A stretch of DNA of 64,000 bases from Siphonodentalium dalli (taxonomy: Eukaryota; Mollusca; Scaphopoda; Gadilida; Siphonodentaliidae), in contig CP136069.1 in assembly GCA_032622095.1 (NCBI GenBank), positions 203,530,690 to 203,594,689 on the forward strand, read 5' to 3'. Numbering within the stretch: position 1 is the first letter of the stretch; the number at the start of each line of letters is the position of its first letter. The notes beneath the pieces were generated by a model that made no database searches, was not told the DNA's origin, and worked only from the letters and a program-made list of their open reading frames with translations. The position numbers were made by a program, and so were the translations under genes. This document shows, piece after piece, positions 38,029 to 59,591 of this stretch.

Positions 38029-38215
38029 TACTAGCCTGATTGAGCTACATGTACATTTTTATTGGCATTTACACACCTCTGTCAATTTTCGACAGTAGCA
38101 CGAAAAAGCGCAATAGGAATTGACTTTCATTAGTTGGTATCACTATCACATCTACAAAGAAATAATAAACTCAATGACTCGCCACATCTTATGTGCAATT
38201 AACAATGTTTTAATT
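38029..38215. other. Spacer
   Basis: Nothing recognised apart from AAATTGACAG-like matches to common AT-rich sequence. Confidence 0.35.
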
Positions 38216-38332
38216 AACCCTTTAACGACAGGAGCTGTGCTGGTGCAGCATTAAATACCCATGCCAGTGGATTCTCTTATATATGTGAGTCTCCTATAGG
38301 AGCCTCGCATGTATAAGAGAATGCACTGGCTT
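38216..38332. mobile_element. Degenerate single hairpin of the hairpin-ended MITE family
   Basis: TTAACCCTTTAACGACAG, similar to the TTAACCCTTTACCCAACA end at 41.4 and 45.0 kb, is followed by a hairpin CCAGTGGATTCTCTTATATA...TATAAGAGAATGCACTGG (38265-38330) with several changes relative to the others. Only one hairpin and one end are visible, so this is a solo or decayed copy. Confidence 0.6.
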
Positions 38333-40472: not shown

Positions 40473-40867
40473 CTGACCTGTTCCACGTGGTTCCAATCAA
40501 GAATTGTCTGAGGATAGAATGATTTTCGATATTCTATGCGCTTGGCCTTAATCAGTTTGTACAGTTTAGAGTTGATACACTCAACATTTTACTGAAAGTT
40601 ATTGGCACGGAGTCCATTAAATTTTTTAGCCTTAATTTTTTCTACCACTCTGAAATATGCCATTATATCATGGGAAAACCAGTGTCTGCCGATAGCTGAT
40701 TGTAAAAATATAGTAATTATAAAAACGTATTTAGGAAGTGATAGTCCTGATAGCGGTATATGATTCTTGTTGTAATCAAATATTTAGAGTTAACTCCCTT
40801 GCAGTAGCTATCCCATTAGCAACATGTATTAGCACGTGATTTACATGTACCGGCATGCAAATGTATA
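40473..40867. other. Unassigned spacer
   Basis: No feature recognised. Confidence 0.4.
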
Positions 40868-40989
40868 TACAGTAATGCCCGAGAACTTTCCGATGAATGG
40901 CAACAAGCCATATTTCCAACTACTAGTAAATCCTGAAAAGTTACCCGTAATTCTGCTGTGGTTTATAAGTCGATTACTTAGAGCATTAG
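40868..40989. mobile_element. Partial Tc1-like foldback element (one arm)
   Basis: TACAGTAATGCCC is followed directly by GAACTTTCCGATGAATGGCA, ACAAGCCATATTTCC and CTGAAAAGTTACCCGTAATT, then GAGCATTA. This is the right arm of the element seen complete at 58375-58591, with most of the left arm deleted. Confidence 0.75.
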
Positions 40990-41124
40990 AACGTGATTTT
41001 CATGTACCAGCATGTAAATCTATATATACAATATTCTATGGACATTTCAAACTGAATTACATGTATTAATAATGATCATTGATATCAGCTAAGCCGCTAA
41101 AGATACTTCATTGTTATTCAACAG

Positions 41125-41263
41125 GGGAATCTGATTGGATGTGAAATGTGAACTACTGGTGCAGTCATGACCGATCAAAGGATCTTCACAGCATGGTGTT
41201 GCATTGTTGTTTTGCCACTCTTAACAGCATCTCAAGGATATGATCTTTCTGATGTCCAAATAT
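41125..41263 (+). CDS. Host gene exon 1: 5' UTR and signal peptide
   Basis: After a possible acceptor (TGTTATTCAACAG, ending 41124), ATG at 41167 opens a frame of 32 codons plus one base, ending at a good donor (ATAT then GTAAGC, 41264). An in-frame TGA lies 18 bases before the ATG, which fixes the start. The product begins MTDQRIFTAWCCIVVLPLLT then ASQGYDLSDVQI: a short polar stretch, a hydrophobic core at residues 6-21 and a small-residue site near 22-24, a classic signal peptide. The exon ends in phase 1, and exon 2 starts with the two bases needed. The protein is predicted to be secreted or a type I membrane protein. 41125-41166 is taken as 5' UTR; an upstream non-coding exon may exist. 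Confidence 0.6.
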
Positions 41264-41425
41264 GTAAGCAGCTGTCAGACAAATAATTATTAGGCCTAAA
41301 AAAAGACCTTTGTTTCGCTAACATGCATTAACAGACTGAAAAAATAGATAGGTACATGTAGGTGGATAAACAAAAATTCTCCAAATATTTCAAGAATATA
41401 ATGTGATGTTGCCAACTCACAATGT
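41264..41425 (+). other. Start of intron 1
   Basis: Unique intronic sequence between the exon 1 donor and the first TTAA element. Confidence 0.4.
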
Positions 41426-41894
41426 TTAACCCTTTACCCAACAAACCGGCCAAAAACGCCCAAATAAAGCTTCAACAGCCTAAAATATCTTCGGTCTGTC
41501 TCAATAACACCATACAAATATGGATATCATTGAAACCGGTTCATTGACCACATTGTGATGGTTGCAGTTATGCCCTGTGCCAATGCATTCTCTTATATAT
41601 GCGAGTCGACCATAGGTCGCCTCGCATATAAGAGAATGCATTGGCCTAAAAAAATTCTTTAAAATTTTAAAACACTTTTTACCATTTTTTCTTACATTCT
41701 TAAACAATTTTATAATTTTTTCTCACATTTTTGAACAATTTGTATAATATTTTTCAACATTCTTTGACAATTTTATAATTTTTAATATGTGTTAAGCCAA
41801 TGCATTCTCTTATATATGCGAGGCGACCTATGGTCGACTCGCATATATAAGAGAATGCATTGGCACAGGGCCGTTCTGTTGGGTAAAGGGTTAA
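41426..41894. mobile_element. TTAA-bounded MITE with hairpin termini, copy 2
   Basis: TTAACCCTTTACCCAACA at the left and TGTTGGGTAAAGGGTTAA at the right give 14-bp TIRs (CCCTTTACCCAACA) between TTAA sites, as for piggyBac-type elements. Inside are two hairpins of about 68 bp (41578-41647 and 41792-41867) in opposite orientation, separated by an AT-rich spacer with repeated CTTACATTCTT...CAATTTTATAA. Left of the first hairpin lies a specific region (GCTTCAACAGCCTAAAATAT) shared with 45017-45416. The left hairpin has lost two bases (GCATATAAG). Confidence 0.88.
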
Positions 41895-42049
41895 TCCTTT
41901 CTATACTAAATGAACTTTCCTATTCAGTTAACAAAATCTTGGATTGGTCTACTATTCATCTGGAGTTTTTTTTTCAGGAAAAAATAAGCAGACAACAGAT
42001 ACATTGTAATAGTTCTCATAATACACGTGCAGAATAAGTTCTATTTATT

Positions 42050-42135
42050 GGAGGGAAATGTTCAGATAATAAGTTCAACAAACGATTTTATTATCCCATG
42101 GTCATTTATTGAACTTAATATCTGAACATTTCCTA
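42050..42135. repeat. Small inverted repeat
   Basis: GGAAATGTTCAGATAATAAG then TTCAACAAA is mirrored by TTGAACTTAATATCTGAACA then TTTCC. Confidence 0.75.
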
Positions 42136-42159
42136 AGGGATATCTTTTATGTAAACTTT

Positions 42160-43134
42160 TTTATACGCCCTTTTGAAAAAAAGGCCGTATTATAGTATTG
42201 GTCTGTCCGTCCGGGCGGGCGTCCGGGCGGGCGTCCGTCCGTTAACCTGTTGTCCGGATGATAACTTTAGTTAGAGTGAACCAAAATTAAATTTGGTATG
42301 TGGGTTTATTAGCCGAAAAGTAAGTTCAAGTTCGAATTTGGGTTCCGCCCGCCAATTTTCACCGGAGTTATGCCCCTTATTTAACGTTTTTTGACTTAGA
42401 AAATCCTTGAAATTTGTTGTCCGGATGATAACTTTAGTATAGTTTATCGGAATGAATCCAAATTTGGTATATTACTTTCTCCCACCAAAACACAGGTCAA
42501 GTTCGAACTTGGGTTCTGTCCGACCATTTTTGGCAGAGTTATGCCCCTTTTTCGACTCAGAAAATTCAGTTTTTCTTATGTTTTTTGGTTTCCGGATGAT
42601 AACTCGATTTTGGAATGTTTATACGCAAAACCCGTATTTTTGTGGATTACATATATCGAAATACAGCTCAAGTCCGAATTTCGTTTTAATCCGATAATTT
42701 TTGCGAGAGTTATGGCCCCTTTTTTGACGTTATTTGACTTAGAAAATCCATGAAATTTGTTGTCCGGATGATAACTTTAGTTAGAGTGAACCGATTTCAA
42801 TCAAATTTGGTATGTGGGTTTATTAGGAGAAAAGACAGCTCAAGTTCGAATTTGGGTTCCGTCCGCCAATTTTCACCGGAGTTATGCCCCTTATTTGACG
42901 TAATTTGACTTGGAAAATCCCTGAAATTTGTTGTCCGCATGATAACTTTACTAGAGCTTATCGGATTCAATGATAATTTGGTATATTACTTTCTCCCACC
43001 AAAACACAGGTCAAGTTCAAATTTGAGTTCCGTCTGCCAATTTTTACCAGAGTTATGTCCCTTTTTTACCAGTTTCCGCCGACCCAAGAGAGGGCGTATA
43101 TTGCACGCCCAGCGTAGCTCTTGTTTCTCCTGAC
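42160..43134 (+). repeat. GTCC-led dispersed repeat, about five units
   Basis: The start ATACGCCCTTTTG...GGCCGTATTATAG and a GTCCGGGCGGGC run are followed by units of about 170-180 bp with TTGTTGTCCGGATGATAACT, AAATTTGGTATGTGGGTTTA, AAGTTCGAATTTGGGTTCCG and GAGTTATGCCCCTTATTT. It ends GAGGGCGTATATTGCACGCC. The plus frames over it are not genes. Confidence 0.88.
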
Positions 43135-43198
43135 TTAAAGGCCCACTTAATTTTCGAACCACCAGATCACATTATATACAACTTATTCCATATTATTG

Positions 43199-43740
43199 TC
43201 CCCCGAAAAAATTATTTTCGGGGGACTATAGAAACAGGGTCCGTCCGTTCGTCCGTCCATTCGTCCGTCCGTCCATTCGTCCGTCCGTTTGTCCGTCCGT
43301 CACACTTTTGAGTACCTTCATGGTGTAATCATCTCCTCCTACAGATTTCATCCCAGAGATTTGAAACTTCAGAATATTGTTGCCCATATATTAAAGATGT
43401 GCTACATGTATATAGATGACGGAAAAATTATTTTTTGACAGAGTTATTAACCCTTTTCGACTTAGAAAACATTTTTTATAATTTTCTGTATGAGGGTACC
43501 TTCATGGTGTAATCAACTCCTCCTACAGTTTTGATTGTAGATATTTGAAACTTCAGAGTATTGTTATCCACATATTGTAGATGTGCAACATGTATATAGA
43601 CGACGGAAAAATTATTTTTTTAGTGAGTTATTAACCCTTTTCGACTTAGAAAATTTCAAAGTTTAAAAAAATTTCTTTAACAAAGCGGCATCGACTTGCC
43701 ACTTTTTCGGGGGACACTGTGGTCAGCTGACCTTTTATAT
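43199..43740 (+). repeat. CCCCCGAAAAA dispersed repeat with GTCC tract
   Basis: The hairpin TCCCCCGAAAAAATTATTTT then CGGGGGA starts it. A GTCCGTCC/GTCCATTC tract follows, then two units of about 180 bp (ACCTTCATGGTGTAATCA, CTCCTCCTACAG, GACGGAAAAATTATTTTT, TTAACCCTTTTCGACTTAGA), and the end GGGGGACACTGTGGTC. An inverse copy is at 7020-7325. Confidence 0.85.
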
Positions 43741-43773
43741 TCCATTTGAAAGAGGAAGCTTTATATTATGAAC

Positions 43774-44151
43774 TTACCTGGTCTTATAGACAACTTACCT
43801 GGTCTTATAGACAACTTACCTGGTCTTATAAACAACTTACCTGGTCTTATAGACAACTTACCTGGTCTTATAGACAACTTACCTGGTCTTATACACAACT
43901 TACCTGGTCTTATAGACAACTTACCTGGTCTTATAGATAACTTACCTGGTCTTATAAACAACTTACCTGGTATTATAGACAACTTACCTGGTATTATAGA
44001 CAACTTACCTGGTCTTATAGACAACTTACCTGGTCTTATAGACAACTTACCTGGTCTTATAGACAACTTACCTGGTCTTATAAACAACTTACCTGGTCTT
44101 ATAGACAACTTACCTGGTCTTATAAACAACTTACCTGGTCTTATAAACTGG
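43774..44151. repeat. 21-bp array, 18 copies, matching the U1 snRNA 5' end
   Basis: The unit AACTTACCTGGTCTTATAGAC occurs 18 times with few changes (AGAC/AAAC/ACAC, GTCTT/GTATT). 21 is a multiple of 3, so both strands stay open (plus NLPGLID, minus RPGKLSI), but nothing suggests translation. Every unit holds ACTTACCTGG, identical to ten bases at the 5' end of U1 snRNA. The opposite strand therefore holds CCAGGTAAGT, the consensus 5' splice site, 18 times. It lies in intron 1 of the host gene on the U1-like strand. Confidence 0.96.
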
Positions 44152-44428
44152 GAACATGTTTTTGTCAATGCACCAAGTTCACCAACGTGTCATGTTTTTT
44201 ATTTTGATCTGGTCTAATATTGTCTACGGAAGGGGAATAACTCTTATTGGTGAATTATGATGCATTCTGGGGTGAGTATTAATGGGGGAAATTTTGGTGT
44301 GAATCTGAGAATCTCCAGTAGCATATACATATTTTTGCTTCCTCTTCCAAATGGTATATAAATATTTATAATATGGAATATGTTGTATATCAAGTGATCT
44401 GGGGATTTGAAATTAATTGGGCCATTAA

Positions 44429-44869
44429 CCATCAAATTACATTTCAATGACCCATTAATCAGTCTATTTTTATCAAATTTTGAGTAATTCTTGACTTATA
44501 TTAATTCTGTTATTGGATATTTTCTGTTGAGTATAATAGGAGATGGCCCCATAAATGGCTGGATTTAGGTAGAGTGTCCCTTTATTAATATTGAACTATC
44601 TTTGCATTTATGTTATCTTAATTATATGTTTTAGGGGACAGAACTTGTTCTCTAAAGTCAAATTAATATATTTGGTTGGTAGATCTATAGTTTGGTCATC
44701 ATTATCATTTTCAACGATATCAAATAATTTACCAGCTATGGAAAACAGTCGATGAGAAGACTTCTCTGACCAAATTGCGGATGAAGGTGGATAACACTAA
44801 AATCAAGTGGCTTTTTTGTGTCAGATATTTGACAAACCTGCAAAATTTAAATGTTGACAAATAACAGGT
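44429..44869. other. Unassigned intronic sequence
   Basis: No repeat or gene recognised. Confidence 0.35.
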
Positions 44870-45020
44870 TTTGGGCAATTGTATACTATAGTTGACTGTG
44901 GTTAGCATTATTTTTGGGCAATTACTTAGTTATGATAACTGAAGCGGCATTTCAAAAAAAAAAAATTATTGTTGGAATCTGATGATATGGGGACCATCGA
45001 ATTGGATTGAGTACCTTTAA
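44870..45020 (-). mobile_element. Fragment of the GGTACTCAATCCGAT repeat, minus strand
   Basis: On the minus strand: TTAAAGGTACTCAATCCAAT, GGTCCCCATATCATCAGATT, GCTTCAGTTATCATAACTAA and AATAATGCTAACCACAGTCA. It ends in the TTAA (45017-45020) that is also the left TTAA of the next MITE. Confidence 0.75.
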
Positions 45021-45416
45021 CCCTTTACCCAACAAACCGGCCAAAACCGGCCAAATAAAGCTTCAACAGCCTAAAATATCTTCGGTCTGTCTCAATAGAA
45101 CCATACAAATATGGATATCATTGGAACCGGCTCCTTGACCACATTGTGATAGTTACAGTTATGCCCTGTGCCAATGCATTCTCTTATATATGCGAGTCGA
45201 CCATAGGTCGCCTCACATATATAAGAGAATGCATTGGCCTAAAAAAAATCTTTTTTTAACACTTTTTACCATTTTTTCTTACAATCTTTAACAATTTTAT
45301 AATTTTTAATGTGTTAAGCCAATGCATTCTCTTATATATGCGAGGCGACCTATGGTCGACTCGCATATATAAGAGAATGCATTGGCACAGGGCCCTTCTG
45401 TTGGGTAAAGGGTTAA
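45017..45416. mobile_element. TTAA-bounded MITE with hairpin termini, copy 3
   Basis: Same ends (TTAACCCTTTACCCAACA...TGTTGGGTAAAGGGTTAA) and left specific region as 41426-41894. Hairpins lie at 45170-45238 and 45318-45387. The inter-hairpin spacer is about 80 bp against about 145 bp in copy 2, through loss of CTTACATTCTT-like units. The left and right hairpin centres keep the same TCGACCATAGGTCGC and GCGACCTATGGTCGA asymmetry. Confidence 0.88.
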
Positions 45417-45484
45417 AGAAATAAGTCAACAGTGTACACATTTCTCTACTCTAACAAAAATTCCATTGGCTCTGCCTCATGTCA

Positions 45485-45857
45485 ACTGAGGACCTACATG
45501 TACGTAACAGTACGTTCACTTAAGACCTACATGTACGTAACAGTACGTTCACTTAAGACCTACATGTACGTAACAGTACGTTCACTTAAGACCTACATGT
45601 ACGTAACAGTACGTTCACTGAAGACCTACATGTACGTAACAGTACGTTCACTTAAGACCTACATGTACGTAACAGTACGTTCACTGAAGACCTACATGTA
45701 CGTAACAGTACGTTCACTTAAGACCTACATGTACGTAACAGTACGTTCACTTAAGACCTACATGTACGTAACAGTACGTTCACTTAAGACCTACATGTAC
45801 CTAACAGTACGTTCACTTAAGACCTACATGTACGTAACAGTACGTTCACTTAAGCTT
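45485..45857. repeat. 33-bp minisatellite, about 11 copies
   Basis: The unit GACCTACATGTACGTAACAG plus TACGTTCACTTAA, with ACTTAAG/ACTGAAG variants. 33 bp keeps an 11-residue repeat open (TVRSLKTYMYV). Each unit carries ACATGT and GTACGTAACAGTACGT self-complementary motifs. Intronic and not taken as coding. Confidence 0.95.
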
Positions 45858-45870
45858 ATTGACAGTTTCA

Positions 45871-46332
45871 TTAAAGATCCACTTAATTTTCGGGTTACCA
45901 ACTATTTTTTTTTATAGTGCCTTGATAGGCAATTCTAATAACAATCTATACCATAACATAGAATTAAAATACTATAATTCATCACCATTTGAAACATATG
46001 TGTCTCAGAAGATGTCCATAGAGAAATAGAAAACAGCGGAAATCATAGAAAGATCCCCCCTGTTATGGCTCCCAGAATGCAACATAATTCAAACTAAAAA
46101 TGTATTTTAAATGGAAGGGGAATAACTCTATCTTTAAATTATAGAGTTATTTCCCATCCATTGAAAATAATAGACTTTGTGTAGGAACTTCAGCAAGATA
46201 AGAGATCTTTTTCTCAACAAAAACAATACATTCACAGCTTATTACATCGAGTAAGTTGAAAATGCAATGTTATGGAGCTTTGGAGCATTTATATAATGTG
46301 ATCTGGGGGTTCAATAATTAAGTTGGTCTTTA
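45871..46332. mobile_element. TTAA-bounded MITE (AAAGRYCMACTTAATT ends)
   Basis: The left TTAAAGATCCACTTAATTTT and the inverse right TTAAAGACCAACTTAATTAT, both flanked by TTAA. It contains a hairpin GGAAGGGGAATAACTCTA...TAGAGTTATTTCCCATCC at 46111-46158. The right TTAA (46329-46332) is shared with the next element. Related to 43135-44428 and, inverted, to 21035-21170. Confidence 0.75.
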
Positions 46333-46835
46333 AAGGTACTCAATACAATTTGATGGTCTCCATATAATCAATCATATTCCAACAACAGCAGTTTTAGAAA
46401 TGCTGCTTCAGTTATCAGAATTGATTAATTGCACACAAATAATGCTAACCAGTAACCACAGTAACCACAGTAACCACAGTAACCACAGACTGTCATAATG
46501 CTAACCAGTAACCACAGACTGTCAACTTAATGCTAACCAGTAACCACAGACTGTCAACTTTGCCCGAAACTTGTTATTTATCAACATGTTGTTCGACGAA
46601 ATTGGGCCTTATTACCAACAGAAAGTCTCTTGATTTTAGAGTTATTCATCTTCATCCGCAATTTGGTCCAATACCATTGGCTCATCAACTCTTTACTGGG
46701 CCACCAACAATTCTCGATGATAAAAAATAATAGATGTCAAAAATTTATATCTAATAACTCTGAGCTTTGAAAGGTGGGTTCCTCGACTCGAGTCAAATAA
46801 ATTTTACCCCCGAATCCAAATAAATAGTAATTGAC
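46329..46835 (+). mobile_element. Dispersed GGTACTCAAT repeat, copy 2, with its own minisatellite
   Basis: The same order of blocks as 15936-16493 (TTAAAGGTACTCAATACAAT, GCTTCAGTTATCAGAATTGA, CTTATTACCAACAGAAAGTC, CCCCCGAATCCAAATAA). Here the expansion is at another site: AATGCTAACCAGTAACCACA then GACTGTCA and GTAACCACA repeats at 46441-46560, where copy 1 has a single AATGCTACCACTGTCAACGG. Confidence 0.85.
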
Positions 46836-47255
46836 GGGCGCTTAATGATAAGCCTTAATCGGATTATGCATCTGTAAGGAAAACTTTATACTTAATAATT
46901 TAAGGTTGTACACTAAACACATATTGTCTTAATTAAGTAAATATCATATTTTCGATTATTATTACACTATGTATTACATATCACTATTATTCTCATTATT
47001 AGTATCTCATAGACGTGCCAAGAACTCTAGTCAGTTATCATGGTATGCTGACTACTGGGGCCAAGTCTAACTTAATCAAGGCTATTATAGCTACTAGATA
47101 GCCTATTATACAAACACAAAATCCAATCCCTAAAAGTTAAACACATTTAAGTTTTCGTGTTTGTAACCTTTTTCACTAAATCATACTTATTTACATAAAC
47201 TTTTTCAAGCTACATGTAGGCCATAACAGTGAAAACACTAATTCCACTACATGCC
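46836..47255. other. Unassigned intronic sequence
   Basis: No feature recognised. Confidence 0.35.
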
Positions 47256-47372
47256 CAGTAATGCTCTAATTAATCGACCCCTTAACCACAGCAGAATTAT
47301 GGGTAACTTTTCAGGATTTAGTCGGAAATATGGCTTGTTGCCATTCATCCGAAAGCTCTCGGGGAGTTTTAA
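47256..47372. mobile_element. Partial Tc1-like foldback element (left arm)
   Basis: CAGTAATGCTCTAATTAATC, CCTTAACCACAGCAGAATTA, TGGGTAACTTTTCAGGATTT, AGTCGGAAATATGGCTTGTT and GCCATTCATCCGAAAGCTCT, then the match stops at the centre. Compare 58375-58591. Confidence 0.78.
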
Positions 47373-47796
47373 TCTAAAAATTCAGGTTAACGATTTGCTT
47401 CACATAAATTGTGCACTTCATATATACTAGTATATTGTTTTCATATTATCACAAAAGACCTGTTATACTATAAACATGTATCATACAATGAAACTAACTT
47501 TTGCAGTCTATACTCTCATATTTATCAACTTTATAAGCCAATATAATCGAATAATTATCTACCTTGAGTACGTTCCAACCGTGCACATTAGAAGCTGAAC
47601 ATACATGTAGAATGCTAATATCTTGTTTCCATTCAAGCACATTTTAGAACAATCGAGAAACCCATGCTGAATCTAGTCAATATCAATCAACGCTTATCAC
47701 ACGTGAACCATGATATCAATCAATGCTTATCACATGTGAACCATGATCACCAATCACCCAGATATCCCCCATCGATTTAACCCCCATTGTTTTCCA
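47373..47796. other. Unassigned intronic sequence with a 33-bp duplication
   Basis: ATATCAATCAACGCTTATCA then CACGTGAACCATG (47677-47710) is repeated as ATATCAATCAATGCTTATCA then CATGTGAACCATG (47711-47745). Nothing else is recognised. Confidence 0.5.
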
Positions 47797-48026
47797 TTAA
47801 ACCGTTCAGTGCCAAGTCCGATTTTTGTATCAAACCATATTTCCTTGATCATTTTTCAAACTTATTGATTATAATAATGTGATACATGTACATTGATGGA
47901 AAGAGCTCAAAGAGCTCAAAGAGCTCTTTTCATCAATGTGTCACATTATTATAATCAATAAATTCGAAAAATGATCAAGGAAATATGGGTTGATACAAAA
48001 ATCAGACTTGGCACTGAAAGGGTTAA
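47797..48026. mobile_element. TTAA-bounded foldback MITE
   Basis: The left TTAAACCGTTCAGTGCCAAG and inverse right TTAACCCTTTCAGTGCCAAG begin arms of about 100 bp (TTTTTGTATCAAACCATATT, TCCTTGATCATTTTTC, TTGATTATAATAATGTGA) around a loop of AAAGAGCTC repeats. TTAA flanks both ends. The ends share TTAACCCTTT with the hairpin-ended family, which suggests a common mobilising enzyme. Confidence 0.85.
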
Positions 48027-48135
48027 CACCCTTATCTCCAAATAATGTTATTTATATGTTTGTTATATCACTTTGTAACCTTTACCCACTGAGGGCCTTT
48101 ATTGGTAAATAAATATATTCTATTCTATTCTGTAT
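48027..48135 (+). mobile_element. LINE 3'-end fragment with ATTCT tail
   Basis: CCACTGAGGGCCTTTATTGG then TAAATAAATATATTCTATTCTATTCTG split by short spacers. A TAAATAAA followed by (ATTCT)n is the usual form of CR1-like 3' tails. Too short to classify further. Confidence 0.4.
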
Positions 48136-48530
48136 GACTGTCTGCTTGTCTGCATGTCTGTCCATCTGTTGTCCAGAGGATAACTTGAATAATATTATAC
48201 AGAATTTGATTGGTACATGTACAAATGTATGTGTCCTTCATATGATAAAGTCCCGATCAAGTTCAAATTTGGACACGGTCTGAGACCGACCATTTATGGT
48301 GGAGTTATGCCCCTTTTTGACTTAGAATTTGCTCTTTATTTTGTTCTGATGATGACTAAAGTTAGTATTATCCAATAGCTTTAAAATTTAATAAGTGGAT
48401 TAATCACATGAAAATACAGGTAGAGCTCAAATTTGGGTTCGTTTCGACCATTTCTCATGGAGTTTAGCCTCTTTTTCAACTTAGAATTTGCCAATTATTA
48501 TCCTGGTATCAAGTAAAATATGTTAACAAC
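48136..48530 (+). repeat. Dispersed repeat of the GTCC family, two units
   Basis: CTGTCTGCTTGTCTGCATGT then TTGTCCAGAGGATAACTTGA, GATCAAGTTCAAATTTGGAC, GAGTTATGCCCCTTTTTGAC and TTAGAATTTGC, then a second diverged unit. Confidence 0.8.
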
Positions 48531-48534
48531 ATAA

Positions 48535-49230
48535 TATATATCTTTATTGTCCTCCATTCACGGAGAGATATATACAGACAATTGAGGTTCACAAAGTTTT
48601 AACGTACATGTACATGTACATGTATATACAAAGCATGTAGTTCACAATTATGAAAGCAATGAGAACAAAAAGACAAACAAACTCCAATGTTGTATAATTA
48701 TATATTGCAACAACATAGTTACAATGTCCTTAGACCCGTTGTTGGGCTTGCACTCGACCCACATACCCACATATCAACGAACACCATGTATTCCTAGAGA
48801 AATACATCTACGTTCAACGAATCGACGGTGGCCCTCGATTCACAACACATAGAATGTATGTGAACCAATAACCAACGTCATTGTTATATCAAAATCAATC
48901 AATGATCGTGGGCCAACTCAGCATAACAGTATATACACACATGATGATATGAACATAAATACTTGTTTACATATGTAAGTAATGTTCTGTCCTCTACATG
49001 TACCCGACTAATGTGTTGAATGTCTGCCACAAGCGTTCTGATGCTTTAACAAAGAAACGAATGAACTGGTTGTGTTTTTCAACATAAGCCAGAGAACCTG
49101 GTGACGGACAACCAAAGGACGTGGCAACAGTTGAAAGCAAAGTTTGATTCAATTATTGTGTTCAGAATCAAATTTTTCATTTCTAAAAAAGCCACCGGTC
49201 AAATAAGGACTTTCTGGGGAACTTGGTGCC
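48535..49230 (-). mobile_element. Probable LINE 3' fragment, minus strand
   Basis: The minus strand ends CTCCGTGAATGGAGGACAAT then AAAGATATATATT, like 36244-36300. About 450 bases further 5', a short frame of about 47 codons ends EKHNQFIRFFVKASERLWQT then FNTLVGYM and a TAG near 49000. No splice acceptor precedes it. It may be the C-terminus of a retroelement ORF or a decayed host exon. I do not recognise the protein. Confidence 0.35.
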
Positions 49231-49264
49231 TATCAGCCTTTTTTGAGCAGCACAAATCAATAAT

Positions 49265-49940
49265 GATGTAAATTAAACCAAGATTGATGTAAATTAAACA
49301 TATAAACCTATACTGATGTAAATTAAACAAATAATGATGTAAATTAAATCATTAATCATGTAAATGAGAACAATAATCATGTAAATTAAACCAATAACAT
49401 GTAAATTAAACCAGTAATTATATAAATGAGAGCAATAATCATGTAAATTAAACCAGTATTAATGATGTAAATTAAATCATTAATCATGTAAATGACAACA
49501 ATGAGAATGTAAATTAAACCAGTATTAATGATGTAAATTAAATCATTAATCATGTAAATGAGAACAATGGGCATGTAAATTAAACCAATAATGATGTAAA
49601 TTAAATCATTAATCATGTAAATGAGAACAATAATCATGTAAATTAAACCAATAACATGTAAATTAAACCAGTAATGATATAAATGAGAGCAATAATCATG
49701 TAAATGAAACCAGTAATGATGTGAATTAATTCAGTAATCATGTAAATGAGAACAATGAGCATGTAAATTAAACCAGTAATGATTTAAATTAAATCATTAA
49801 TCATGTAAATGAGAATAATGGGCATGTAAATTAAACCAGTAATCATGTAAATTAAATCAGTAATCATGTAAATGAGAATAATTGGCATGTAAATTAAACC
49901 AATAATGATGTATATTAAACCAATAATGATGTAAATTAGT
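49265..49940. repeat. AT-rich 20-21-bp tandem array
   Basis: Units such as AATCATGTAAATTAAACCAG, AATGATGTAAATTAAATCAT and AATCATGTAAATGAGAACAA alternate in a roughly 62-bp higher-order cycle, about 32 units in all. The minus-strand LIYMIND frame is a by-product. The array stops 50 bp before the exon 2 acceptor, so it forms the end of intron 1. Confidence 0.92.
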
Positions 49941-49990
49941 TACTGTAATTGTTACTAAGCTCCACTAATATTCATGTCGATATTCTTCAG

Positions 49991-50217
49991 ATTTCATGGA
50001 CATCTGTGACGGGACGAAACAGAGGTCCCTAACGGAACAGCGGATGTGGATTGTCTCAGCTAATGAGAAAACGCCGAAAATTTGCCTAAGAAAATTCATA
50101 ACAACAGAACCTGGAATCTGCGTCAATATCCTCACTATCAGGGGGCGTCCTGATGTCGGGAAGGCATGGGAGGCACCATCATGCCCATTTGATCTCTCCA
50201 TATTGCATAAGAGTGTG
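49991..50217 (+). CDS. Host gene exon 2: cysteine-bearing extracellular segment
   Basis: The acceptor is CATGTCGATATTCTTCAG with a plausible branch point ACTAAT about 25 bases upstream. The first two bases (AT) complete the codon begun by T at the end of exon 1 (TAT, Tyr). 75 codons follow, starting FMDICDGTKQRSLTEQRMWI and including KICLRKFITT, GICVNILTI and APSCPFDLSILHKSV. The exon ends phase 0 at a donor GTG then GTAAGC. Four cysteines and alternating hydrophobic strands suggest a beta-rich, disulphide-bonded domain, possibly a divergent CUB-like fold completed by exon 3; the family is not certain. The last 71 bp belong to a tandem triplication that also copies the splice site, so a shorter real exon is possible. 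Confidence 0.55.
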
Positions 50218-50360
50218 GTAAGCATGTCCGGAAGGCATGGGAGGCACCATCATGCCCATTTGATCTGTCCATATTGCATAAGAGTGTGGTAAGCATGTCC
50301 GGAAGGCATGGGAGACACCATCATGCCCATTTGATCTGTCCATATTGCATAAGAGTGTGA
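50147..50360 (+). repeat. 71-bp triplication spanning the exon 2 donor site
   Basis: GGAAGGCATGGGAGGCACCA, TCATGCCCATTTGATCTSTC and CATATTGCATAAGAGTGTG occur three times, exactly 71 bp apart. The boundary after GAGTGTG reads GTAAGC (50218), GTAAGC (50289) and ATAAGC (50360), so two intact donors and one broken donor lie in a row. Units two and three are nearly identical. Confidence 0.93.
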
Positions 50361-50445
50361 TAAGCTTAGCTTCATCATCGGGGTGATGATCTGTATGTTT
50401 TTCATGGCCAATCCTGAGTTGAGTGTGGCTGTCATTTGCATAATG
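50361..50445. other. Intron 2, short unique segment
   Basis: Nothing recognised. Confidence 0.35.
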
Positions 50446-50535
50446 AGCTTCACAGAGGGTGAATTTAGTGATGCTATCCCGCATGGCAGGCTAACATCAC
50501 TAAATTCACCCTCTGGGAACCTCACTCTGCATAGC
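50446..50535. mobile_element. Foldback MITE of the CAGAATGAGGTCCCC family, copy 2
   Basis: AGGGTGAATTTAGTGATGCT on the left pairs with ACATCACTAAATTCACCCTC then TGGGAACCTCACTCTG on the right, around CCCGCATGGCAGG. The left outer arm is truncated. Confidence 0.75.
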
Positions 50536-50766
50536 CTCATCTGCTATTGGAGACATAAACTCCTGCCAATTTGGATATATAGAGAAACTAATCTAAAAAG
50601 AAATAGAATCTATGTGAAGTAGTTCTATAGAAATTTGATAATAAAGAAACTTTCCAGAGAAGATGAGGCCTAAGCAGAATGAGGTACCCATATGGTGAAT
50701 TTAGTGATGTTAGCCCACTATGTGGGATAGCGTCACTAAATTCACCCTCTGGGGACCTCATTCTGT
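50536..50766. mobile_element. Foldback MITE of the CAGAATGAGGTCCCC family, copy 3
   Basis: GATAATAAAGAAACTTTCCA, GAGAAGATGAGGCCTAAGCA, GAATGAGGTACCCATATGGT and GAATTTAGTGATGTTAGCCC pair with GGGATAGCGTCACTAAATTC then ACCCTCTGGGGACCTCATTC. The outer GAGAAGATGAGGC block also flanks the copies near 9.0-9.3 kb. Confidence 0.75.
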
Positions 50767-50883
50767 AAATGACAGGCACCTTATGCTCAGGGTTCATGCT
50801 AGCCACTTCTGAATTTTTTGGGAATTTTTTCCGAAACTTTAGCCAAATTAAAATACCAAAATATGGGATCATGAAGAAACAAG
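50767..50883. other. Spacer with a GCTCAGGGTTCATGCTAGCC fragment
   Basis: GGTTCATGCTAGCCACTTCT with AAATTTTTTGG resembles pieces near 53400-53500 (inverse) and 59400-59470, a further low-complexity dispersed repeat. Confidence 0.35.
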
Positions 50884-51865
50884 AAAAATGCCCAAAAATA
50901 TAAAGAAACACAAACAAAAATATAAAGAAACACGCACAAAAATAGAAAGAAACATGCACAAAAATATAAAGAAACATGCACAAAAATATAAAGAAACACT
51001 CACAAAAATATAAAGAAACACGCACAAAAATATAAAGAAACATGCACAAAAATATAAAGAAACACGCACAAAAATATAAAGAAACATGCACAAAAATATA
51101 AAGAAACACTCACAAAAATATAAAGAAACACGCACAAAAATATAAAGAAACACGCACTAAAAAAATATAAAGAAACACGCACAAAAATATAAAGAAACAC
51201 GCCCAAAAATATAAAGAAACACACACAAAAATATAAAGAAACACAAACAAAAATATAAAGAAACACGCACAAAACTATAAAGAAACACGCACAAAAATAT
51301 AAAGAAACACAGACAAAAATATAAAGAAACACAAACAAAAATATAAAATAAACACGCACAAAAATATAAAGAAACACAAACAAAAATATAAAGAAACACG
51401 CACAAAAATATAAAGAAACACAGACAAAAATATAAAGAAACATTCACAAAAATAGAAAGAACCACAAACAAAAATATAAAGAAACACAGACAAAAATATA
51501 AAGACACACTCACAAAAATATAAAGAAACGCGCACAAAATTATAAAGAAACAATCACAAAAATATAAAGAAACACAAACAAAAATATAAAGAAACACGCA
51601 CAAAAATATAAAGAAACATGCACAAAAATATAAAGAAACACAAACAAAAATATAAAATAAACACAGACAAAAATATAAAGAAACACGCACAAAAATATAA
51701 AGAAACAGACAAAAATATAAAGAATATATTCACAAAAATAGAAAGAACCACAAACAAAAATATAAAGAAACACAGACAAAAATATAAAGAAACATTCACA
51801 AAAATATAAAGAAACACAAACAAAAATATAAAGAAACACGAAAAAAAATATAAAGAAACATGCAA
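50884..51865. repeat. 22-bp minisatellite, about 44 copies
   Basis: The unit CACAAAAATATAAAGAAACA plus CG, with CGC/ATG/AAA/CAG/ACT variants. Purine-rich on the plus strand and stop-free on the minus strand in all frames, giving overlapping hydrophobic frames (FLYIFVRVSLYF) of up to 177 codons. In intron 2 and not taken as coding. Confidence 0.95.
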
Positions 51866-52040
51866 CACACAGGTATGATTCGATTCGATTTCGTCAATTC
51901 GATTTCGTCGATTCGATCAAAATCTCCAACTCACAATACCCTAGTTCTAGAAGCTATTCATAATTGTTTTGATAAAAGCATGTGTGACTTTTACACACAT
52001 GGGGAGTAAATGCTGATTTTCCAAGAGATCTGATGATTAG
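51866..52040. other. Short GATTCGATTTCG repeat and spacer
   Basis: ATTCGATTTCGTCAATTCGA and similar repeats at 51883-51925. The rest is unassigned. Confidence 0.5.
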
Positions 52041-52970
52041 GGTTGGGCGGTATTGACGTTTTAAAAAAACGCGATTTGTCCAATATAACACCTCGATATA
52101 TGGTTTTATTGAATATTATTTGACTATTGAAAAATACCACGTAAAATCAAATGTTAAATGAGAAACATAACACTCTGGGTTTTCGTTATAAGCGATGTAA
52201 AATTGTACACACTATCGTCAGGCAGTAAATGCGCCCATTCTATAAAGTTCCTGCCTTCTGGAATACGCAACAACATTGAGTGAATTACAGACTCAAGTTA
52301 TCCTGATTACTCCATTGTTTACATATCAGCACGCAATGCACATTCCCGTTACATCATAGCTAAGCACATGCTCATAGGTTGATAGAGGACCCAGTAGAAT
52401 TGGGCCAAGATGGTTCATTCTGGGCTGTCTGCAGTTTATCACACACAATGAATTACGGAACATTTTTAATTAACTTTGAACACGGGAAAAATAATTATAA
52501 TTAATCATTGAACAATATTGCAAATCGTGAGTTTCTTATCCATATTCTTGGCAAGGAACACTAATATGTCAACTCTAGACGGATTGAGACATGTTAGTTT
52601 CCTGAGTCAAGTTTTAAGATATAATTGAATGACAAATACCGCCGAGTCGTGAGGCGGAAAGTTTGGACGAAGTATCGCGCGTGATGTTACACCGCTACCA
52701 AGTTGGATTCGGAAGAAGATACTCCATCGCTCCACTTCAGCCCAAAATACAACCGTTGCACCATTGGTTACAATAAAAGACAATGGAGACTTGGGAGCAA
52801 CCGATAAAGGCTGCTTTCAATCAGCGGTCTGCTAAAATATTCAACTCAGTATTGGATTGTAATTTGAAACTGTCTTTTAAGGTGATAAAATTGCAGTTGC
52901 GATATATTGAATTTTTATTTTACACACGGTTTCAATACGGTTTTTCTTTTTCAAACCGACTATAGTCAAT
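52041..52970. mobile_element. Possible hAT-like non-autonomous element
   Basis: TTAGGGTTGGGCGGTATTGA near 52040 resembles a hAT terminus and is followed by CGATATATGG. Near 52900-52970 the inverse (AGTCGGTTTGAAAAAGAAAA, ACCGTATTGAAACCGTG, ATTCAATATATCGCAACTG) could be the other end. The termini are diverged and no duplication was found, so this is tentative. Confidence 0.35.
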
Positions 52971-52974
52971 ATAT

Positions 52975-53388
52975 TGACTACTGATGATGATTTAAGAGGT
53001 TACCATGGAGATCTAATGATAATTTGAGAGGTTACCATGGATATCTGATGATGATTTAAGAGGTTACCATGGAGATCTAATGATAATTTGAGAGGTTACC
53101 ATGAATATCTGATGATAATTTAAGAGGTCACCATGGAGATCTGATGATAATTTGAGAGGTTACCATGGAGATCTGATGATAATTTGAGAGGTTACCATGG
53201 AGATCTGAATCATCTGATGATAATTTGAGAGGTTACCATGTAGATATGATGATAATTTGAGAGTTTACCAAGGAGATCTGATGATAATTTGAGAGGTTAC
53301 CATGGAGATCTGATGATAATTTGAGAGGTTACCATGGAGATCTGATGATAATTTGAGAGGTTACCATGGAGATCTGATGATAACAAGA
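52975..53388. repeat. 32-bp minisatellite, about 13 copies
   Basis: The unit GAGGTTACCATGGAGATCTG plus ATGATAATTTGA, with early units alternating GGATATC and GGAGATC and one 40-bp unit near 53205. Confidence 0.93.
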
Positions 53389-54057
53389 GAGGTGATTGCT
53401 GACTATAATTTTTAAAGTCTTTAAAATTTTTGGCCAAATGAAATTTCTTTGGCCATTTCCCCAAAAATGGCAATTTGACAGCCAAAACCCTGTTCATGTC
53501 TGACATTTGCAGAATGAGGTCCTCAAGAGGGTGAATTTAGTGACTACCCTGCACAGCAAAATAAATAGATTTCAAAAATCAAAATCTAATAGTTCTGAGC
53601 TTTGATGGCTGGGTTCCTTGACTTAAGAAGTTGTTGGCTTTGGTTGAGACTGGGGATCTTTCATAAGTTTTAATTTCTAGTTGAGTCCAACTCAGTGCAA
53701 TTTTTTATGTAAAAATGAAGTCAGGGCTCTAATTCTCCAGGTCAAGGTCACCATTGTTCACTCAGTGTGTGAAATAAGCATACAGTTATCTAATCAGAAA
53801 CCTTCTGTTATAATCAGTTCAAAGCATTTGCTGAACAAAACACTGCTAATTAAATTGGTCATTTCCATGTTTTCTGTCTTAACTATACATTTATTATGTC
53901 TTAATATACCATGTTTTAATTACTATTATACATCTATTTATTTATATTTTATTTGCTACTTTATTGAATAATGTTTAGTTAATCAATAATGAGTTGTTTG
54001 GGCTTCAACAGCTCTCAGTAACGATGGCAATACATTTCGATCTTAGTGCTATTTTCT
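53389..54057. other. Mosaic of repeat fragments and unassigned sequence
   Basis: 53410-53490 holds TTTGGCCAAATGAAATTTC (shared with 59430-59490). 53508-53550 is one arm of the CAGAATGAGG family. 53570-53630 matches the CTCTGAGCTTTGA block of the GGTACTC repeat. The rest, including a 96-codon frame at 53681, is unassigned. Confidence 0.5.
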
Positions 54058-57000
54058 ATAAACCGAAACACCTCTCTAAACCGAACAGAAGGGCCGGTCT
54101 GAACACCTCTCTAAACCGAACAGAAGGGCCGGTCTGAACACCTCTCTAAACCGAACAGAAGGGCCGGTCTGAACACCTCTCTAAACTGAACAGAAGGGCC
54201 GGTCTGAACACTTCTCTAAACCGAACAGAAGAGCCGGTCTGAACACCTCTCTAAACTGAACAGAAGGGCCGGTCTGAACACCTCTCTAAACCGAACAGAA
54301 GGGCTGGTCTAAACACCTCTCTAAACTGAACAGAAGGGCCGGTCTGAACACCTCTCTAAACCGAACAGAAGGGCCGGTCTGAACACCTCTCTAAACTGAA
54401 CAGAAGGGTCGGTCTGAACACCTCTCTAAACCGAACAGAAGGGCCGGTCTGAACACCTCTCTAAACTGAACAGAAGGGCCGGTCTGAACACCTCTCTAAA
54501 CCGAACAGAAGGGCCGGTCTGAACACCTCTCTAAACTGAACAGAAGGGCCGGTCTGAACACCTCTCTAAACCGAACAGAAGGGCCGGTCTGAACACCTCT
54601 CTAAACTGAACAGAAGGGCCGGTCTGAACACTTCTCTAAACCGAACAGAAGAGCCGGTCTGAACACCTCTCTAAACTGAACAGAAGGGCCGGTCTGAACA
54701 CCTCTCTAAACCGAACAGAAGGGCCGGTCTGAACACCTCTCTAAACTGAACAGAAGGGCCGGTCTGAACACCTCTCTAAACCGAACAGAAGGGCTGGTCT
54801 AAACACCTCTCTAAACTGAACAGAAGGGCCGGTCTGAACACCTCTCTAAACTGAACAGAAGGGCCGGTCTGAACACCTCTCTAAACCGAACAGAAGGGCC
54901 GGTCTGAACACCTCTCTAAACCGAACAGAAGGGCCGGTCTGAACACCTCTCTAAACCGAACAGAAGGGCCGGTCTGAACACCTCTCTAAACCGAACAGAA
55001 GGGCCGGTCTGAACACCTCTCTAAACTGAACAGTAGGGCCGGTCTGAACACCTCTCTAAACCGAACAGAAGGGCCGGTCTGAACACCTCTCTAAACTGAA
55101 CAGAAGGGCCGGTCTGAACACCTCTCTAAACCGAACAGAAGGGCCGGTCTGAACACCTCTCTAAACTGAACAGAAGGGCCGGTCTGAACACCTCTCTAAA
55201 CTGAACAGAAGGGCCGGTCTGAACACCTCTCTAAACCGAACAGAAGGGCCGGTCTGAACACCTCTAAACCGAACAGAAGGGCCGGTCTGAACACCTCTCT
55301 AAACTGAACAGAAGGGCCGGTCTGAACACCTCTCTAAACCGAACAGAAGGGCCGGTCTGAACACCTCTCTAAACCGAACAGAAGGGTCGGTCTGAACACC
55401 TCTCTAAACCGAACAGAAGGGCCGGTCTGAACACTTCTCTAAACCGAACAGAAGGGCCGGTCTGAACACCTCTCTATACTGAACAGAAGGGCCGGTCTGA
55501 ACACCTCTCTAAACCGAACAGAAGGGCCGGTCTGAACACCTCTCTAAACCGAACAGAAGGGCCGGTCTGAACACCTCTCTAAACCGAACAGAAGGGCCGG
55601 TCTAAATACCTCTCTAAACTGAACAGAAGGGCCGGTCTGAACACCTCTCTAAACTGAACAGAAGGGCCGGTCTGAACACCTCTCTAAACCGAACAGAAGG
55701 GCCGGTCTGAACACCTCTCTAAACTGAACAGAAGGGTCGGTCTGAACACCTCTCTAAACCGAACAGAAGGGCCGGTCTGAACACCTCTCTAAACTGAACA
55801 GAAGGGCCGGTCTGAACACTTCTCTAAACCGAACAGAAGAGCCGGTCTGAACACCTCTCTAAACTGAACAGAAGGGCCGGTCTGAACACCTCTCTAAACC
55901 GAACAGAAGGGCCGGTCTGAACACCTCTCTAAACCGAACAGAAGGGCCGTTCTGAACACCTCTCTAAACTGAACAGAAGGGCCGGTCTGAACACCTCTCT
56001 AAACCGAACAGAAGGGCCGGTCTGAACACCTCTCTAAACTGAACAGAAGGGCCGGTCTGAACACCTCTCTAAACTGAACAGAAGGGCCGGTCTGAACACC
56101 TCTCTAAACTGAACAGAAGGGCCGGTCTGAACACCGCTCTAAACTGAACACCTCTCTAAACTGAACAGAAGGGCCGGTCTGAACACCTCTCTAAACTGAA
56201 CAGAAGCGCCGGTCTGAACACCTCTCTAAACTGAACAGAAGGGTCGGTCTGAACACCTCTCTAAACCGAACAGAAGGGCCGGTCTGAACACCTCTCTAAA
56301 CTGAACAGAAGGGCCGGTCTGAACACCTCTCTAAACTGAACAGAAGGGCCGGTCTGAACACCTCTCTAAACTGAACAGAAGGGCCGGTCTGAACACCTCT
56401 CTAAACTGAACAGAAGCGCCGGTCTGAACACCTCTCTAAACTGAACAGAAGGGCCGGTCTGAACACCTCTCTAAACTGAACAGAAGGGCCGGTCTGAACA
56501 CCTCTCTAAACCGAACAGAAGGGCCGGTCTGAACACCTCTCTAAACTGAACAGAAGGGCCGGTCTGAACACCTCTCTAAACTGAACAGAAGGGCCGGTCT
56601 GAACACCTCTCTAAACTGAACAGAAGGGCCGGTCTGAACACCTCTCTAAACCGAACAGAAGGGCCGGTCTGAACACCTCTAAACCGAACAGAAGGGCCGG
56701 TCTGAACACCTCTCTAAACTGAACAGAAGGGCCGGTCTGAACACCTCTCTAAACTGAACAGAAGGGCCGGTCTGAACACCTCTCTAAACTGAACAGAAGG
56801 GCCGGTCTGAACACCTCTCTAAACTGAACAGAAGGGCCGGTCTGAACTCCTCTCTAAACCGAACAGAAGGGCCGGTCTGAACACCTCTCTAAACTGAACA
56901 GAAGGGCCGGTCTGAACACCTCTCTAAACTGAACAGAAGCGCCGGTCTGAACACCTCTCTAAACTGAACAGAAGGGCCGGTCTGAACACCTCTAAACCGA

Positions 57001-57255
57001 ACAGAAGGGCCGGTCTGAACACCTCTCTAAACTGAACAGAAGGGCCGGTCTGAACACCTCTCTAAACTGAACAGAAGCGCCGGTCTGAACACCTCTCTAA
57101 ACTGAACAGAAGGGCCGGTCTGAACACCTCTCTAAACCGAACAGAAGGGCCGGTCTGAACACCTCTCTAAACTGAACAGAAGGGCCGGTCTGAACAACTC
57201 TCTAAACTGAACAGAAGGGCCGGTCTGAACACCTCTCTAAACTGAACAGAATGGC
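54058..57255. repeat. 35-bp satellite, about 91 copies
   Basis: The unit CACCTCTCTAAACCGAACAG plus AAGGGCCGGTCTGAA comes in two main forms, AAACCGAAC and AAACTGAAC, often alternating so that a 70-bp dimer dominates parts of the array. Rarer marks (CACTTCTC with AGAGCCGG, GGGTCGG, AAGCGCC, and CCTCTAAACC lacking TCT) recur in blocks, showing segmental amplification. The final unit decays into GTCCAATGGGTGTTCAGTTT. Most frames contain stops. It lies within intron 2 of the host gene. Confidence 0.97.
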
Positions 57256-57527
57256 TGGTCCAATGGGTGTTCAGTTTGGAGAGGTTTTACTGCATTTCAA
57301 GGCTTGAATAATTTGAACCGTGAAACTGATGGACTACCAGTATATCAATGATCCTTATATATACCTTGTTTCATGTATCATCTCTTCTGAGTGCTGAGTC
57401 GTATTTGGCATCTAATTCCATTTCTATGTTAGACACTACACCATAAGTTAAAACCATAATTTAAAATTTTTATTATGACAGGCATTATTATATACACTAT
57501 TAATCACACATCTTCATTACCTACTTC
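57256..57527. other. Unassigned intronic spacer
   Basis: No feature recognised. Confidence 0.4.
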
Positions 57528-57532
57528 ATTAT

Positions 57533-57570
<38 letters not shown>

Positions 57571-58280
57571 CAACGAAGTTAGGGGGGTATACTGGAGTCA
57601 GCTTGTCCGTCCGTCCGTCCGTGGACACAAATTTGTCCGGAGTTTTTCTCAGCTGTTTTTGATCAATTTCCGTGAAACTTGGCACAGGCATCAACCACCA
57701 TGGGAACCTGTGCACCTGCGATTATGACGTCTGTCAGACTTTTTTTGTTGGAGTTATTCCCCCTTTTTTGACTTAGAAATTTTTTGCAACATGTATAATT
57801 TTGTCCGAGCTTTTATTCCTACATTTCTAGGTCAATTTTTTTTAACTTGGCACAGACATTTAGTACCATGGGAACCTGTGCACCTGCGATTATGATGTCT
57901 GTCTGGCATTTTTTGGTGGAGTTATTCCCCTTTTTTGACTTAGACATTTTTTTGCAACATGCATAATTTTGTCCGAGCTTTTATTTCTACATTATTAGGT
58001 CAATGTTTTTTAATCTTGGCACTGATATTTAGTACCATGAGAACCTGTGCACCTGCGATTATGATGTCTGTCCGACTTTTTTTGTGGAGTTATTCCCCTT
58101 TTTTTACTTAGAAATTTTTGCAAAATGCATAATTTTGTCCGAGCTTTTATTCCTACATTTTTCGGTCAATAGGTTTAAGATTAGGGTTAGGTTTGTGCAC
58201 CTGCAATGGGAACTGTTATTTTATTATTTTAACTAAATGTTTACTGACATGTGAAACATCTTAGTATTTTAAAAACACGG
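57528..58280 (+). mobile_element. TACCCCCC-ended dispersed repeat with C36 tract
   Basis: ATTATACC then 36 C (57534-57569), GCAACGAAGTTAGGGGGGTA and a GTCCGTCC tract. Four units of about 150-175 bp follow (GTGAAACTTGGCACAGGCAT, CCATGGGAACCTGTGCACCT, GCGATTATGACGTCTGTC, GAGTTATTCCCC, TTTGACTTAGAAATTTTT). It ends ACACGGGGGGTATCC. TACCCCC at the start and GGGGGTA at the end make a short terminal inverted repeat. Confidence 0.8.
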
Positions 58281-58374
58281 GGGGTATCCTTAGTCCCATT
58301 GGGACAGTCACACCTCTAGTTATCTTCTGCCTGCTATCACACTTCCACCTTTCTCGTCCCTGCACTAGCATAAC
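58281..58374. other. Spacer
   Basis: Nothing recognised. Confidence 0.4.
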
Positions 58375-58591
58375 TACAGTAATGCTCTAATTAATCGACT
58401 CCTTAACTACAGCAGAATTATGGGTAACTTTTCAGGATTTAGTCGGAAATATGGCTTGTTGCCATTCATCGGAAAGCTCTCGGCGAGAGCTTTCCAATGA
58501 ATGGCAACAAGCCATATTTCCGACTAAATCCTGAAAAGTTACCCATAATTCTGCTGTAGTTAAGGAGTCGATTAATTAGAGCATTACTGTA
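58375..58591. mobile_element. Tc1-like foldback MITE, complete copy
   Basis: TA, then CAGTAATGCTCTAATTAATC, CCTTAACTACAGCAGAATTA, TGGGTAACTTTTCAGGATTT, AGTCGGAAATATGGCTTGTT and GCCATTCATCGGAAAGCTCT, then the near-perfect inverse to GCATTACTG and TA. Arms are about 105 bp with almost no loop. CAGT ends and a TA target fit the Tc1/mariner group. Non-coding. Confidence 0.88.
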
Positions 58592-58807
58592 ACTTCCCAA
58601 CATTTAAAAGAAAATACAGAAAAATATTCAAATTCCCGTCTCTTTACCCTGCAACTGTCTGAATTGAAACTCAGGTAACATTTCTAGAGGAAAGTATTTT
58701 TAGAAAAGCCATAGGCTTATGGCTGTTATCCAATCCTCATTTGAACTATTGTTTTTGCTATATGTATAATTGTCAATGTGATTTTCTGTTCTTCCTTTCA
58801 AATAAAT
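58592..58807. other. Spacer between two foldback copies
   Basis: Unassigned intronic sequence. Confidence 0.4.
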
Positions 58808-59023
58808 ACAGTGATGCCCTAAGTAATTGACTCTTCAACCACAGCAGAATTATGGGTAACTTTTCAGGATTTAGTCGGAAATATGGCATGTTGCCATTCA
58901 TCGGAAAGCTCTCACTGAGAGCTTTCCAATGAATGGCAACAAGACATATTTCCGACTAAATCCTGAAAAGTTACCCATAATTCTCTTGTGGTTAAGGAGT
59001 CGATTACTTAGGGCATTACTGTA
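58808..59023. mobile_element. Tc1-like foldback MITE, second copy beside exon 3
   Basis: TA, CAGTGATGCCCTAAGTAATT, then the same arm (GGGTAACTTTTCAGGATTTA, CATTCATCGGAAAGCTCTCA) and its inverse to GGGCATTACTG and TA. Slightly more diverged than the first copy. Its end is 42 bp before the exon 3 acceptor. Confidence 0.88.
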
Positions 59024-59065
59024 TTGTTTACACTAACTATTGGATTCAATAATATTCTATTCCAG

Positions 59066-59297
59066 GTTCAAGATATTTACTCCTGTGATCCGCCATGGAT
59101 CGACGGTGGAGTTGATTGGTCCCGCTGTTATAACCATAATATATCCATAGAGATAAACAAACATGTGTTGAAAACTACAGAGAACTTCTATCTTAGAATA
59201 ACTGTTGCTTCTATACGACATAAACAGCACGGAGATAAACAGAACGGCAGCACAATAACTGCTACTTCTACTACAACAACCACAACGCCAAAATCAT
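59066..59297 (+). CDS. Host gene exon 3: extracellular segment and Thr-rich linker
   Basis: The acceptor ATTCTATTCCAG is preceded by a CACTAACT branch point about 29 bases upstream. The exon starts in phase 0, which matches the end of exon 2. It encodes 77 codons plus one base: VQDIYSCDPPWIDGGVDWSR, CYNHNISIEINKHVLKTTEN, FYLRITVASIRHKQHGDKQN, GSTITATSTTTTTTPKS. The donor is TCAT then GTAAGT. Two cysteines join the four of exon 2, and NIS and NGS are potential N-glycosylation sites. The run of threonines looks like an O-glycosylated stalk, so a membrane anchor or further domains should follow. The next exon must begin with two bases completing a codon (phase 1); none is recognised before the right edge. 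Resemblance of exons 2-3 to a CUB domain is only suggestive. Confidence 0.6.
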
Positions 59298-59591
59298 GTA
59301 AGTTCAGCAATGAGTATGAGGCCAAATATAAAAACATAACGCGTTCTCGGGCACCTCTCTCATCACTAAAAAATATTTGATCAAAATTCACATAAACGCA
59401 GTGTTCATGCTGGGTGGAAAACTATTTTGGCCAAATGAATTTTTTTTTTGCCAAATTATAAAAACTTTGGCCAAATTAATTTTGGTCAAATTAAAAACGG
59501 TTGGACCAAATCCTCATTTTCTGTTTTAATTTATTTGTTATCAGGATAAAACCATGATTTAAACAACATGAAAACAACTTTAAGAACCTAA
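59298..59591 (+). other. Intron 3 start with TTTGGCCAAA fragments
   Basis: Contains repeated TTTGGCCAAATTAATTTTGG-type phrases shared with 53410-53490. No exon is recognised. Confidence 0.4.

Follow-up and report, generated by a model that had tools for sequence, protein, structure and literature searches.

Tandem-duplicated, lineage-restricted families of secreted proteins or receptor ectodomains exist as a general kind among invertebrates. Extracellular modules are generally bordered by phase-1 introns on both sides, so that such borders do not single out any one module, among them the CUB domain of about 110 amino acids (aa). The gene described here, designated A, lies within a 64,000-nucleotide window of the Siphonodentalium dalli genome (contig CP136069.1, referred to as C9; the window is C9:203530690–203594689) and was previously guessed to be CUB-like. 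It resembles the invertebrate families in having a leader exon, symmetric module exons, Thr-rich linkers and tandem as well as partial copies, and further, in one pair here, in fast exon change. It differs from them in that sequence searches link its module to no Pfam-A family and to no solved structure. Compared with CUB domains, the module is longer (about 130–140 aa) and carries six cysteines rather than four, with neither a detectable profile similarity nor a Pfam CUB match.

Missed by scans for long open reading frames (ORFs) and by Pfam-A, the gene was spotted in the raw sequence and then confirmed by its paralogues, adding a secreted-module family that is missing from the protein libraries searched. 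The family formed by its exons 2 and 3 is new to those libraries, yet it is no new kind of system. We consider it probable that exons 1–3 of A are coding, that they belong to a family outside Pfam-A and the solved structures with a secreted modular product, and that A is a partial duplicate which probably still makes protein. The product would be secreted, or would form the extracellular portion of a membrane protein, with disulphide-bonded modules carried on Thr-rich, probably glycosylated linkers, and the modules may bind an extracellular ligand.

Three exons of gene A

The first-pass annotation had proposed three exons, and their coordinates, AG and GT borders and phases were all reproduced when the window was re-read (Table 1). 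Exon 1 (97 nt, 32 aa, donor gtaagc) has an in-frame TGA 5′ of its ATG, and its leader looks like a signal peptide, as had been proposed, judged by eye only. Exon 2 (227 nt) starts at cag/AT, completes the split codon with two bases and has gtaagc as its donor. Exon 3 (232 nt) starts at cag/GTT and ends at donor gtaagt. Exit phases of the three exons are 1, 0 and 1. The exons join in frame to give 185 aa comprising a leader, six mature cysteines and a Thr-rich end, the cysteines and Thr-rich stretch being as annotated; the paralogues agree with the single spliced product predicted earlier. Because their phases run 1-0 and 0-1, exons 2 and 3 together make a symmetric module, entered and left in phase 1.

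Table 1. Positions of the features discussed. Ranges without a contig name are window positions.
Feature	Position	Strand	Description
Exon 1, gene A	41167..41263	+	ATG, signal-peptide-like sequence, first mature residues; ends in phase 1
Exon 2, gene A	49991..50217	+	first half of six-cysteine module, with 4 Cys; entered in phase 1, left in phase 0
Exon 3, gene A	59066..59297	+	second module half, with 2 Cys, then Thr-rich linker; entered in phase 0, left in phase 1
71-bp unit, 3 copies	50153..50365	+	tail of exon 2 and its donor, with further copies in intron 2
35/70-bp minisatellite, intron 2	54067..57260	.	common to B at ~96% identity
A/B shared segment, with gaps and insertions	37477..59330	+	counterpart in B is C9:203635012–203648152
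Exon 4 copies	B, C9:204.30M, C1:141.19M, C3:22.64M, C3:22.75M, C3:22.82M, C3:23.12M

A family of paired exons

The genome searched comprises 2.23 Gb in nine contigs. It carries at least ten exon 2/exon 3 pairs, on C1, C2, C3 and C9, always in the same order and on the same strand as each other; note that genome-wide copy counts are lower bounds, and that exon ends of the family copies were placed by eye from alignments. All ten copies of exon 2 have an AG/AT acceptor and a phase-0 GT donor. All ten copies of exon 3 have an AG acceptor, and nine are open with a phase-1 donor; the remaining one, at C3:22.602M, is broken by a TAG and a frameshift. Six cysteines are retained in every intact pair (9/9), and nine of the ten pairs combine these cysteines with phases 1-0 and 0-1 and a Thr-rich end. 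Since borders, phases and cysteines are conserved across paralogues, the exons can be regarded as real. The alternative, chance open frames flanked by chance splice sites, is refuted by the existence of ten paralogous pairs in which borders and phases are conserved, and we assign it a negligible probability. At the level of sequence comparison, then, the three predicted exons of A are confirmed as true coding exons of one family of at least ten members.

Relatives of exon 1 were matched only in A and B by protein search of the genome. Gene B, also found by protein search, is a tandem paralogue on the same strand about 60 kb downstream of A. Its exons 1–3 matched at C9:203638669, C9:203640341 and C9:203647909, with order and phases as in A, and its exon 1 codes for 34 aa where that of A codes for 32, the two differing by one in-frame 6-nt indel. 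Similarity between A and B runs from the upstream region through 33 nt past exon 3 of A, where the duplication stops. Elsewhere, the copies at C3:22.829M and C3:23.126M, some 300 kb apart, are nearly identical in exons 2 and 3, which suggests a recent segmental duplication.

A fourth exon in fuller copies

When the regions downstream of exon 3 in seven copies were compared in translation (tblastn), four of the copies proved to share a conserved exon. Genome searches placed this exon 4 at seven positions, each 3′ of an exon 3 and on the same strand. Base-level reading of four copies shows it to be entered in phase 1 and left in phase 0, like exon 2. Exons 4 and 2 are homologous (hhalign probability 82%, E 1e-5), and cross-hits between their hidden Markov models (HMMs) were obtained as well; the fuller genes therefore contain a second module. 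The description of A as a three-exon gene was thus incomplete for the family, in which seven of ten copies go on to a fourth exon and, with it, the start of a second module.

Besides A, two copies gave no exon 4. For the C2 copy, none was detected in genome searches or in 9.7 kb read past exon 3. The broken copy at C3:22.602M, for which genome searches returned no exon 4 match, is laid out like A, upstream of a fuller copy at C3:22.628M. Downstream tblastn and HMM searches returned only exon 4 and repeat-like sequence; the comparison of six copies by tblastn excluded queries with a minus-strand match or with repeated matches to their own region. One candidate, a match between B 121513–121881 and the C3d downstream region, was set aside as a dispersed repeat on a judgement made by eye. 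A transmembrane exon, which the first-pass annotation had suggested looking for to the right of the window, was sought only via conservation between the downstream regions of the copies (seven, then six), and this indirect search gave none.

More distant relatives of exon 4 lie at C1:202226733 (E 2.3e-4), where a C-C-C-CPY pattern is present, and at C1:266566523 (E 0.0046). They hint at a possible wider superfamily.

Family identity

No Pfam-A family exceeded its cut-off for the members scanned, the joined 185-residue product included, and no solved structure was matched at E <0.36. Weak Pfam matches, all below cut-off or chance-like, were to Haemocyan_bet_s (E 0.17–0.19), Hmr1_E-cad-like (0.06–0.08), DUF6259 (0.07–0.09), Barwin (0.07) and others; exon 3 of the C1 copy, Thr-rich end included, gave DUF3439 (0.003) and Beta-sand_DEX1 (0.014), to which the same applies. 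Weak matches in the PDB were to influenza haemagglutinin (E 0.36 and above), IL-18 receptor accessory protein (E 5), rhodniin (0.51) and ZIC3 (0.74), and these were likewise rejected.

The earlier guess of a CUB-like protein failed both Pfam profile and profile–profile tests. CUB (PF00431) was absent from the families listed by hmmscan for the joined A product at E up to 1. It was also not listed for eight members (alignment A3) and 13 half-module sequences (alignment A6) at E up to 10, although these wider scans are limited by the HMMER filters, which discard most matches above about 0.1. For profile–profile comparison, the CUB reference was built from nine CUB domains, three from the same genome and six from solved structures. 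Against this reference, hhalign probabilities were 0.2% (module, A3), 0.5% (exon 4) and 0.1% (first halves combined, A6), with CUB–CUB positive controls at 97.5% and 100%. Column-shuffled CUB profiles reached the real score in 22/60 (A3) and 57/60 (A6) trials in local mode, and in 44/60 and 22/60 in global mode.

Could the module nevertheless be a divergent CUB domain with one additional disulphide? If the third of the six cysteines is omitted, the four-cysteine spacing is 27, 26–28 and 24–25 in five of the nine intact pairs, compared with about 26, 27 and 22 in the aligned CUB domains, a resemblance confined to part of the copies. The CPY/CPF-x-L motif resembles the C-x-YD-x-L of CUB, and the best alignment of exon 4 with CUB, at only 0.5%, falls in register of the second cysteine. 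CUB exons are also numerous in this genome, where the Pfam model matches 144 places elsewhere. Yet the other four intact pairs are spaced differently by the same count (26-33-18 in A itself, 25-27-18 in B and 29-27-20 in two), the members scanned show no Pfam match to CUB, and the hhalign scores for both A3 and A6 are no better than those of shuffled columns, although the positive controls succeed. We regard this identification as doubtful: a CUB-like fold is a lead, and CUB membership is unsupported.

CUB-domain exons in the genome include two large clusters facing each other, at C7:9.69–9.93M (plus strand) and C7:10.56–10.74M (minus strand), possibly an inverted duplication.

Divergence of A and B

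Differences between A and B were counted in 13 homologous non-coding blocks and in the coding exons. Non-coding DNA differs at 150 of 2077 sites (7.2%); note that the blocks were picked for alignability, which biases them towards conserved sequence, and that a few overlap slightly. Coding differences number 9/97 in exon 1, 47/203 (23%) in exon 2 and 24/211 in exon 3. The excess over the non-coding rate is strong in exon 2 (p = 2e-11), weak in exon 3 (p = 0.04) and absent in exon 1 (p = 0.42). In the nucleotide alignment, all eight coding indels are multiples of three, as against 4 of 21 non-coding indels (Fisher p = 1e-4). One block, 47796–48026, breaks collinearity with B and probably represents a repeat; when it is subtracted, the non-coding values become 137/1861 sites and 2/19 indels, and the conclusion is unchanged. 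The branch-point-like motifs reported earlier are indeed present near exons 2 and 3, but their evidential weight is nil because the aligned non-coding DNA is about 93% identical anyway.

Amino-acid differences were assigned by majority vote of six other members, giving 17 derived in A, 15 derived in B and 12 unassigned. As derived changes are not in excess in A, the data do not fit an unconstrained A beside a constrained B. Silent differences between A and B are also raised in exon 2 (11/41, p = 1.5e-4), so that selection at the protein level alone is insufficient for this exon; local exchange with another copy may lie behind its divergence. The pattern is not seen elsewhere in the family: in the 11 other pairs listed with both exons (silent distance <0.9), the ratio of nonsynonymous to synonymous change (dN/dS) ranges from 0.11 to 0.78. 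Diversifying selection is not supported as a family-wide rule: dN/dS is 0.11 for C3:22.829M/23.126M, and for C1/C9:204M it is 1.15 in exon 2 and 0.78 over both exons.

Exon 2 thus differs between A and B about three times as much as the aligned non-coding DNA does, which makes fast exon evolution directly testable. A broader proposal strikes us as very improbable: a recognition system, whether self/non-self, gamete or immune, in which 5′ cassettes (exons 1–3) lying in tandem outpace their introns in divergence and are joined to common downstream modules by alternative splicing.

Does gene A still make protein?

With the duplication stopping 33 bases past exon 3 and no exon 4 before B, A looks like a 5′ partial duplicate. 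As A retains its frame, it most likely still makes protein. Two forms of product may be envisaged. In the first, A would yield a short secreted one-module form ending inside intron 3; the reading frame continues for 27 codons beyond exon 3 and then meets a stop. In the second, A would be spliced over 60 kb to the phase-compatible exon 4 of B.

Several results weigh against a coding, partial-duplicate A of this kind. The 48 kb separating A from B yielded no exon 4 to translated comparison or HMM searches, and no 3′ end of gene A was found. Neither exon 5, nor a membrane anchor, nor a stop codon was found in the 6–25 kb past exon 4 in six copies, and base-level reading covers only four of the seven exon 4 copies. 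The A/B dN/dS over exons 2 and 3 is 0.92, a value that fits weak constraint too. Assuming 35 substitutions, the probability that A would be free of stops under neutrality is about 0.23, which is appreciable.

A recent pseudogene, that is, a truncated 5′ copy that lacks 3′ exons and is not yet visibly broken, would account for the lack of an exon 4 and for the dN/dS near 0.9, and the comparable copy without exon 4 at C3:22.602M is visibly broken in exon 3. It sits poorly with the coding indels, every one of them in frame, with the intact state of all six cysteines and exon borders in A, and with derived changes that are not concentrated in A. Exons 2 and 3 have, moreover, diverged more than non-coding DNA, not equally. 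We judge a pseudogene somewhat unlikely.

A and B could alternatively form one transcription unit, in which exons 1–3 of A serve as an alternative 5′ cassette spliced from window position 59297 to exon 4 of B at C9:203649959, or to its exon 2 at C9:203640330 to give an extra module. A lies upstream of B and shares its strand; the phase 1 in which exon 3 of A ends is also the one in which exons 2 and 4 of B both start, and no closer exon 4 was found. Such a unit would require a junction of about 50–60 kb and the skipping of B's own leader exon, and it appears improbable, less likely than a pseudogene. The A/B layout nonetheless offers a clean test case for 5′ partial duplicates as alternative cassettes. 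Our preferred reading remains that of a partial duplicate with coding exons.

Repeats and a neighbouring element

The introns of A had been described as filled with repeats, and this description holds; among the repeats are the 71-bp unit and the minisatellite of intron 2 (Table 1). A second donor lies in the 71-bp repeat of A; if used, it would add 71 nt and shift the frame. Five of ten copies repeat their own exon 2 tail (at least 33 nt) within 206 nt of the donor, and no such tail repeats occur in the 1.4-kb upstream flanks of any of the ten.

On the minus strand of the window, positions 28906–33704 hold a retroelement of the long interspersed nuclear element (LINE) type. A middle ORF, the third of the element, is without any match, and an ORF upstream encodes a PHD finger barely above cut-off. 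The main ORF, of about 939 aa, has endonuclease and reverse transcriptase domains.

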